Source of the DNA: Gemmatimonadota bacterium
GTDB taxonomy: Bacteria; Gemmatimonadota; Gemmatimonadetes; Longimicrobiales; Gaopeijiaceae
Direction: 5' to 3'
Assembly (NCBI GenBank): GCA_028873825.1
Contig: JAPPNM010000093.1
Location: forward strand, 1 to 34,393
DNA: 34,393 nucleotides
Shown: piece after piece, positions 4,436-5,051 of the stretch
How the letters are laid out: every line of letters begins with the position of its first letter
How positions within the stretch are numbered: the stretch's first letter is position 1
Position numbers and translations under genes: made by a program
The notes under the pieces: generated by a model
The model's database searches: none
What the model saw: only the letters and a program-made list of their open reading frames with translations
Told to the model about the DNA's origin: nothing

Positions 4436-4586
4436 GGCCGAATGAAGGTAATAGGGCGCCGCCCGTCTCCCCAAGCGGGGCCGGCTTTCCTGTCGGGCGC
4501 GGCTTTCCCCGGACGCGCCGCCCGGATAGCTTCCGACGGCACCGGCGACCGGCAGCCCTCACCCACCACGCCAACGAGGCCCCTCC
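4436..4586. promoter_or_regulatory. Divergent msrA/osmC-like intergenic region
   Basis: This 151-nt gap must hold promoters for both divergent genes. On the minus strand a TATTAC lies about 15 nt before the msrA ATG and could be part of a -10 element. On the plus strand GAGG at 4576-4579 is a ribosome-binding site 7 nt before the OsmC ATG. I see no convincing operator palindrome. Confidence 0.4.
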
Positions 4587-5051
4587 ATGAGCGACCCCTT
4601 CTACACCGCCCGAGCCCACGTAGCGAAGGTGGACGGCATCCACCGTCGCGCGACGCTGGAAGACGGCACCGAGATCGACTTCGGCGTCCACGGCGCAATC
4701 AAGTCGCACTACCGCCTCGACGCGGAGCCCGACCGCCCCCTGCCGGTCGACTACGTGGTCGCGGCGGCCGCGGGCTGACTGCTCGGGACGCTCAACGGCG
4801 CACTGGAGGTGCGCGGGATCCCGATGGCGAACGACGCGATCAGCGTGGCCGCGGAGGGTGTGAACGAGGTGGTGGACCGGATCGTGGTGCTGACGAAGAT
4901 TCACGCGCACTACGCTATCCAGCTTCCGGCCGGCGCACCGCGCGACAAGGTCGACCGGGCGCTGGAAACGCACGTGGCGAAGTGCCCGACGGCGCGCAGT
5001 CTGGAAGGTGCGGTCGAGGTCACCTGGTCGGCGGACGTGACGGAGGGGTAA
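4587..5051 (+). CDS. OsmC-family peroxidase-like protein, candidate selenoprotein (in-frame TGA = Sec64)
   Basis: OsmC/Ohr proteins reduce organic peroxides with two cysteines about 65-70 residues apart. Here the frame reads 63 residues ending PVDYVVAAAAG, then TGA at 4776-4778, then continues unbroken for 90 residues (LLGTLNGALEVRG onward) to TAA. The TGA sits where the family has its first conserved Cys (the AAAAG-C or GSC motif at the start of the long central helix). The second conserved Cys is present as Cys133 in AKCPTARSL, 69 residues later. Both halves are well conserved, the frame is intact and the total of 154 residues is a normal family length. A SECIS-like hairpin follows the TGA (4798-4814). 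GAGG 7 nt upstream supports ATG 4587. I interpret it as a selenocysteine peroxidase. The alternative is a recent nonsense mutation. No sel genes are in the window to settle it. Confidence 0.8.
4776..4814 (+). promoter_or_regulatory. Bacterial SECIS-like element after TGA
   Basis: TGA occupies 4776-4778. A 6-bp perfect stem, GCGCAC (4798-4803) with GTGCGC (4809-4814), closes the 5-nt loop TGGAG (4804-4808). The loop starts 25 nt after the TGA and has G as its second base. Known bacterial SECIS elements lie within the coding region, with the apical loop about 16-37 nt after the UGA and a G among the first two loop bases, so this fits. GC-rich sequence forms short stems by chance, so the hairpin supports but does not prove the case. 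Confidence 0.6.

Follow-up and report, generated by a model that had tools for sequence, protein, structure and literature searches.

Our data allow the conclusion that a gene of the window, by which we mean the whole stretch of 34,393 nt that was analysed, encodes an OsmC-fold selenoprotein with a predicted selenocysteine (Sec) at codon 64, and we put the probability of this reading at roughly 95%. We draw this conclusion, and infer the incorporation of Sec itself, from several lines of sequence evidence, namely the position of a UGA at the catalytic Cys and its conservation, selection on the reading frame, a covarying hairpin downstream, the presence of the Sec machinery and the correlated occurrence of selA in two phyla. 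The preliminary description of this DNA had proposed a candidate selenoprotein, and the tests it had named beforehand (a search for selA, selB, tRNA-Sec and selD, for scattered stops or frameshifts in relatives and for homologues with Cys or TGA at this codon) did not refute the proposal, which is supported by our analysis. The features of the locus are as follows:

4587-5051, plus strand: gene for a predicted selenoprotein of the OsmC family, 154 residues long, including Sec64 (U64) and Cys133; PF02566 match, purifying selection before and after the TGA, orthologues
4776-4778, plus strand: in-frame TGA, predicted to be read as selenocysteine (U64), in the first conserved OsmC Cys column; TGA at all 111 related loci examined, aligned to Cys of 1ukk, 1ml8 and Gemmatimonadota Cys homologues
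4798-4814, plus strand: SECIS-like stem-loop, 6-bp stem of 4798-4803 with 4809-4814, loop TGGAG with conserved GG; pairing, covariation, absence of synonymous change in the genus and held-out loci
4983-4985, plus strand: codon of Cys133, the second conserved OsmC Cys and presumed resolving Cys; invariant in 49 sequences, in the column of the second 1ukk Cys
4576-4579, plus strand: GAGG, a possible ribosome-binding site 7 nt before the ATG, read from the sequence

The frame starts with the ATG at 4587 and comprises 63 sense codons, the TGA, 90 further sense codons and a TAA at 5049-5051, just as the preliminary description had read it. Gene callers that treat UGA as a stop split or miss such genes, and standard annotation would cut this one at the UGA. 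The read-through product scores 50.5 bits against the Pfam model PF02566 (OsmC; cut-off 27.5), and all 49 relatives match the same family. In sequence alignments, codon 64 falls on the first conserved Cys of the Thermus OsmC protein (1ukk) and of 1ml8, and the same column is occupied by Cys in the Gemmatimonadota Cys homologues, which confirms the claim that the TGA replaces this residue at the presumed active site, within the motif U-L-L-G-T. The second Cys was also placed correctly, since C133, located 69 residues past U64, aligns with the second conserved Cys of 1ukk and thus shows the normal spacing.

The TGA is conserved far beyond the source genome. Within the genus, 21 of 22 congeneric genomes have an orthologue of 78-91% identity whose codon 64 is likewise an in-frame TGA, the exception being G016 (86% complete), in which we found a paralogue only. 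A search of 395 Gemmatimonadota genomes yielded about 90 loci with at least 50% identity as well as many paralogues with 34-48% identity, each with the TGA among the matches listed. For 111 related loci (91 orthologues and 20 paralogues, with some genomes fetched twice) the sequence was fetched, and the codon aligned with 64 is TGA in 111/111 and never TAA or TAG. The gene also extends to a second phylum (G400, the genome of locus L070, is titled Acidobacteriota), where it is found in 25 of 297 genomes, again with TGA in all 25. No relative was detected in the plasmid records searched.

Selection on the protein continues past the TGA. Among 21 congeneric sequences, pN/pS is 0.150 before and 0.200 after it, whereas the two shifted frames downstream give values of 1.9 and 2.8. 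Moreover, the ten codons leading from the TGA to the GTG at 4809, the only internal start candidate, show no amino-acid change in 210 pairs (pN = 0). These data bear on the idea that the TGA is a true stop that separates a 63-residue N-terminal piece from an 80-residue protein starting at this GTG, from which a frame is indeed open to 5051. Such a split is very unlikely in view of the purifying selection downstream and the invariance of exactly those codons that would lie between the two proteins; furthermore, the GTG forms part of the stem-loop and relatives have GCG or GCA in its place, the TGA is never exchanged for another stop codon, and the division would cut a long helix of the predicted fold. 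A pseudogene or a sequencing error, i.e. one nonsense mutation, would look identical in one sequence, where the gene is intact but for one in-frame stop. However, the same TGA recurs in many assemblies that are independent of each other and include single-contig genomes, and 83 distinct loci contain neither another in-frame stop nor a frameshift between codons -60 and +83, so that together with the continued purifying selection this explanation can be regarded as excluded for practical purposes. The conserved TGA, the lack of further stops and the covariation of the hairpin described below show that the pattern goes beyond chance.

Further support comes from the hairpin (GCGCAC-TGGAG-GTGCGC). 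Its 6-bp stem and TGGAG loop are present as initially described; the distance of 25 nt after the TGA given there fits the start of the loop, whereas the stem already starts at 19 nt. A G is located in the apical loop of this hairpin 3' of the UGA, which is the criterion for a bacterial SECIS element. Synonymous variation in the stem codons (+6 to +12) is zero within the genus, while the mean heterozygosity is 0.27 upstream of them and 0.30 downstream. In a set of 65 distinct sequences that covers both paralogue groups but excludes L119-L122, all 390 cells are standard pairs and 28 of them are compensatory; related sequences are treated as separate in these counts, and the changes recur in distant lineages. 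The covariation score of 0.224 exceeds the shuffled mean of 0.120, with none of 500 shuffles reaching it and all slid versions scoring lower. The pairing is also visible in the choice of stem codons, as Ala GCA stands opposite GTG in 57/57 cases, GCG opposite GCG in 16/16 and Val GTG opposite GCA in 6/6, while GCA is rare among the Ala codons elsewhere in these genes (81/1233). The structure was fixed before the loci of the second phylum were fetched, and 12/12 of these held-out loci keep 6/6 stem pairs, with G-U pairs in several.

In the window, an extra lower stem (4783-4788 with 4819-4824) also folds well, but across relatives only 60% of its cells are paired and we do not claim it. The Rfam scan of the window returned nothing at gathering scores. 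Four distant paralogues of group 2 (L119-L122) keep the UGA, but their sequence differs in this region and forms no equivalent stem, which may reflect either another SECIS shape or a loss of decoding.

The source genome (3.3 Mb in 183 contigs, 93% complete, the second smallest of 23 assemblies in the genus) encodes most of the machinery for Sec insertion. A tRNA-Sec is detected over the cut-off with 78.2 bits and is called tRNA-SeC with anticodon TCA by ARAGORN, SelA scores 482 bits, and SelB is recognised by its C-terminal wing domain over the cut-off; against the full-length SelB model it scores 181.8 bits (cut-off 242), a contig end truncating it by the N-terminal 86 positions of the model. 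Of the machinery genes proposed for inspection, selA, selB and tRNA-Sec were thus found, whereas selD gave no match over the cut-off in this fragmented, incomplete assembly. As SelD is present in 22/22 congeners (E < 1e-100), the simplest reading of its absence is an assembly gap. The SelD of nearly all these genomes (e.g. L085, L086, L087) contains an in-frame TGA of its own and is probably itself a selenoprotein.

On a broader scale, selA occurs in 38 of 40 genomes with the Sec-OsmC gene compared with 6 of 19 without it (59 related genomes; Fisher p 5e-7), and in the second phylum it is over the cut-off in 24/25 genomes with the gene compared with 167/272 without it (p 1.5e-4), both tests ignoring shared ancestry. 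The two Sec-OsmC genomes lacking a selA match (G024, G043) are both assembled in hundreds of contigs, and both have selD. A general reading of UGA as Trp, Gly or Cys in this organism would likewise leave an open frame through the codon, but this is excluded in practice, because TGA is the ordinary end of 13 of the 21 gene models in the window, selA, selB and tRNA-Sec are present, and the UGA stands at a Cys column upstream of a covarying hairpin.

In the proposed model for decoding as Sec, SelB together with Sec-tRNA-Sec would serve the ribosome at the UGA of codon 64, with the stem-loop at 4798-4814 holding SelB at this site. Translation would then continue to a 154-residue protein with Sec64 in a long helix and Cys133 as its partner. 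The AlphaFold model of this protein has the OsmC alpha/beta fold (pLDDT 96.3), and the PDB structures that match it best belong to E. coli OsmC (1qwi, 1nye), Thermus OsmC (1ukk) and Ohr proteins (best E 7.5e-10, TM about 0.7-0.8). Residues invariant in the 49 relatives include R20, H35, D55, U64, R76, Y109, R124 and C133. The two Cys of Ohr/OsmC correspond in the alignment to Sec64 and Cys133, and the invariant Arg20 is a candidate catalytic Arg based on sequence. The catalytic residues of Xylella Ohr are Arg19, Glu51, Cys61 and Cys125 (PMC5962072). In the sequence alignment, Val54 occupies the column of the catalytic Glu of Ohr and the invariant Asp55 adjoins it.

From the fold and the Sec/Cys spacing, a role as peroxidase appears fairly probable. 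If the protein follows the chemistry of Ohr/OsmC, it would use the Sec64 selenolate to reduce an organic hydroperoxide, Cys133 would resolve the resulting selenenic acid as an Se-S bond, and a dithiol, e.g. a lipoylated protein or thioredoxin, would reduce this bond and reset the enzyme. Sec64 and Cys133 would then take the parts that Cys61 and Cys125 play in Ohr (PMC5962072). Because of Val54 at the Glu column, although the invariant Asp55 is located beside it, the peroxidase chemistry is unproven. Sec64 and Cys133 could instead serve a different redox reaction, e.g. the reduction of disulfides or sulfenates, so that the protein would be an OsmC-fold selenoprotein without being a peroxidase. 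The displaced Glu fits this possibility, as do the invariant R20, H35, D55, R76 and Y109, which would define a site of its own, and the absence of a conserved neighbour gene pointing to a substrate at the loci compared; in addition, the OsmC-family-related FTN_1133 is reported to lack thiol peroxidase activity (PMC4069020). We nevertheless regard such a role as rather unlikely, since both the fold and the Sec/Cys spacing match Ohr/OsmC. The reduction of organic hydroperoxides by those Ohr and OsmC proteins that have been characterised also speaks for the peroxidase.

The gene neighbourhood pointed to no conserved functional partner at the loci compared. The preliminary description had placed the proposed Sec peroxidase beside msrA. 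We reject msrA as a functional partner, because another gene intervenes in most congeners and a search of 4 kb around the gene in the more distant loci outside the genus detected no msrA; the adjacency is therefore a gene order at the level of the genus. The intervening gene resembles a PLP-dependent diaminopropionate ammonia-lyase (e.g. L043:2700-3924, L049:2619-4004), and the window either lost it or never had it. As a side observation, nearly the same locus is present on two contigs (L050, L052) of one MAG titled Deltaproteobacteria, a title unlike its gene content, and this MAG is probably a mixed or mislabelled assembly.

OsmC-like selenoproteins as such have been known since 2005, when three sequences with the motif UxxT were described from the Sargasso Sea (PMC1088965), followed in 2008 by five sequences in the GOS data (PMC2398784), and the marine protein is listed in reviews of 2022 and 2026 (PMC9312934, PMC13188914). 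The preliminary description was thus right to mention such proteins from marine metagenomes. The protein described here shares with them the PF02566 family, Sec at the conserved redox position and a bacterial SECIS element downstream. In contrast to UxxT, its motif U-L-L-G-T reads UxxG with Thr at +4; it is set apart by the published motif, and some of the marine proteins may belong to its clade.

The best NCBIfam match of the window protein is NF041052 (OsmC_like_Se), which has the same Cys/Sec column, but the score of 28.8 bits lies well below the cut-off of 95, and the best of the 49 relatives reaches only E 6.8e-10. One locus in the 395 Gemmatimonadota genomes passes this cut-off, and it has no in-frame stop; TGA-bearing loci above the cut-off are absent among the matches listed. 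Similarly, the window protein scores 22.3 bits against TIGR03563 (OsmC / SACOL1771-type peroxiredoxin subfamilies; cut-off 166) and remains unmatched by TIGR03562 at E 0.001. Judged by these sequence models, it is an OsmC-fold selenoprotein outside the curated subfamily NF041052. Compared with the OsmC/Ohr peroxidases of known structure (1qwi, 1nye, 1ukk, Ohr), the fold and the two Cys columns are alike, whereas the window protein has Sec for the first Cys, Val with an invariant Asp beside it at the Glu position of Ohr, and only about 16-24% identity. The literature searched contained no report of an OsmC selenoprotein from Gemmatimonadota.

A tree of 53 proteins groups the window protein with a second paralogue in a single Sec-only clade (100/96). 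Among the matches listed from about 690 genomes of two phyla, there is no Cys version of this clade, and all listed matches stronger than E 1e-9 carry the TGA, except for one in G480 (3.7e-12), which is a 66-residue fragment at a contig end without the TGA region. Those matches that lack a stop are much weaker and represent distant OsmC proteins. The codon state covers the listed matches, and a few paralogue matches of about E 1e-16 to 1e-21 lie outside the list. In many selenoprotein families, Cys members far outnumber Sec members (e.g. the GOS counts, PMC2398784). It is about an even bet that we are dealing with a widespread OsmC subfamily existing only with selenocysteine, in which the reaction may require Sec, rather than Sec being an optional upgrade of Cys. 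With about 100 loci in Gemmatimonadota and a second phylum, mostly together with Sec machinery, a clade in which no Cys member is seen makes a clean case for studying what Sec does that Cys cannot.

The second paralogous Sec-OsmC (L108-L127; 34-48% identity) has the motif UL[VTA]GT and accompanies the first in many genomes, but no copy of it was detected in the source genome of the window. A separate group 3 (UTSMT; 98/98) is nested inside a Cys clade (100/99) of the same tree, for which the program flags long branches and the deep joins are tentative. Sec thus appears to occur in two separate OsmC-family lineages of Gemmatimonadota, with the same reservation about the deep joins, and the second lineage with its Cys sisters would provide a natural control. 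Like the window protein, group 3 has Sec in the same column and a hairpin 3' of the UGA, but it forms its own clade among Cys homologues (sisters such as L141 and L150). Its loci (L154-L166, from G303, G184, G155, G121, G283, G120, G152, G071, G192, G378, G356, G260 and G243) read LGAUTSMTIALYARRK and come from genomes of another family of the same class. At one of them, L154, a group 3 and a group 2 Sec-OsmC gene are located on the same strand within about 1.4 kb.
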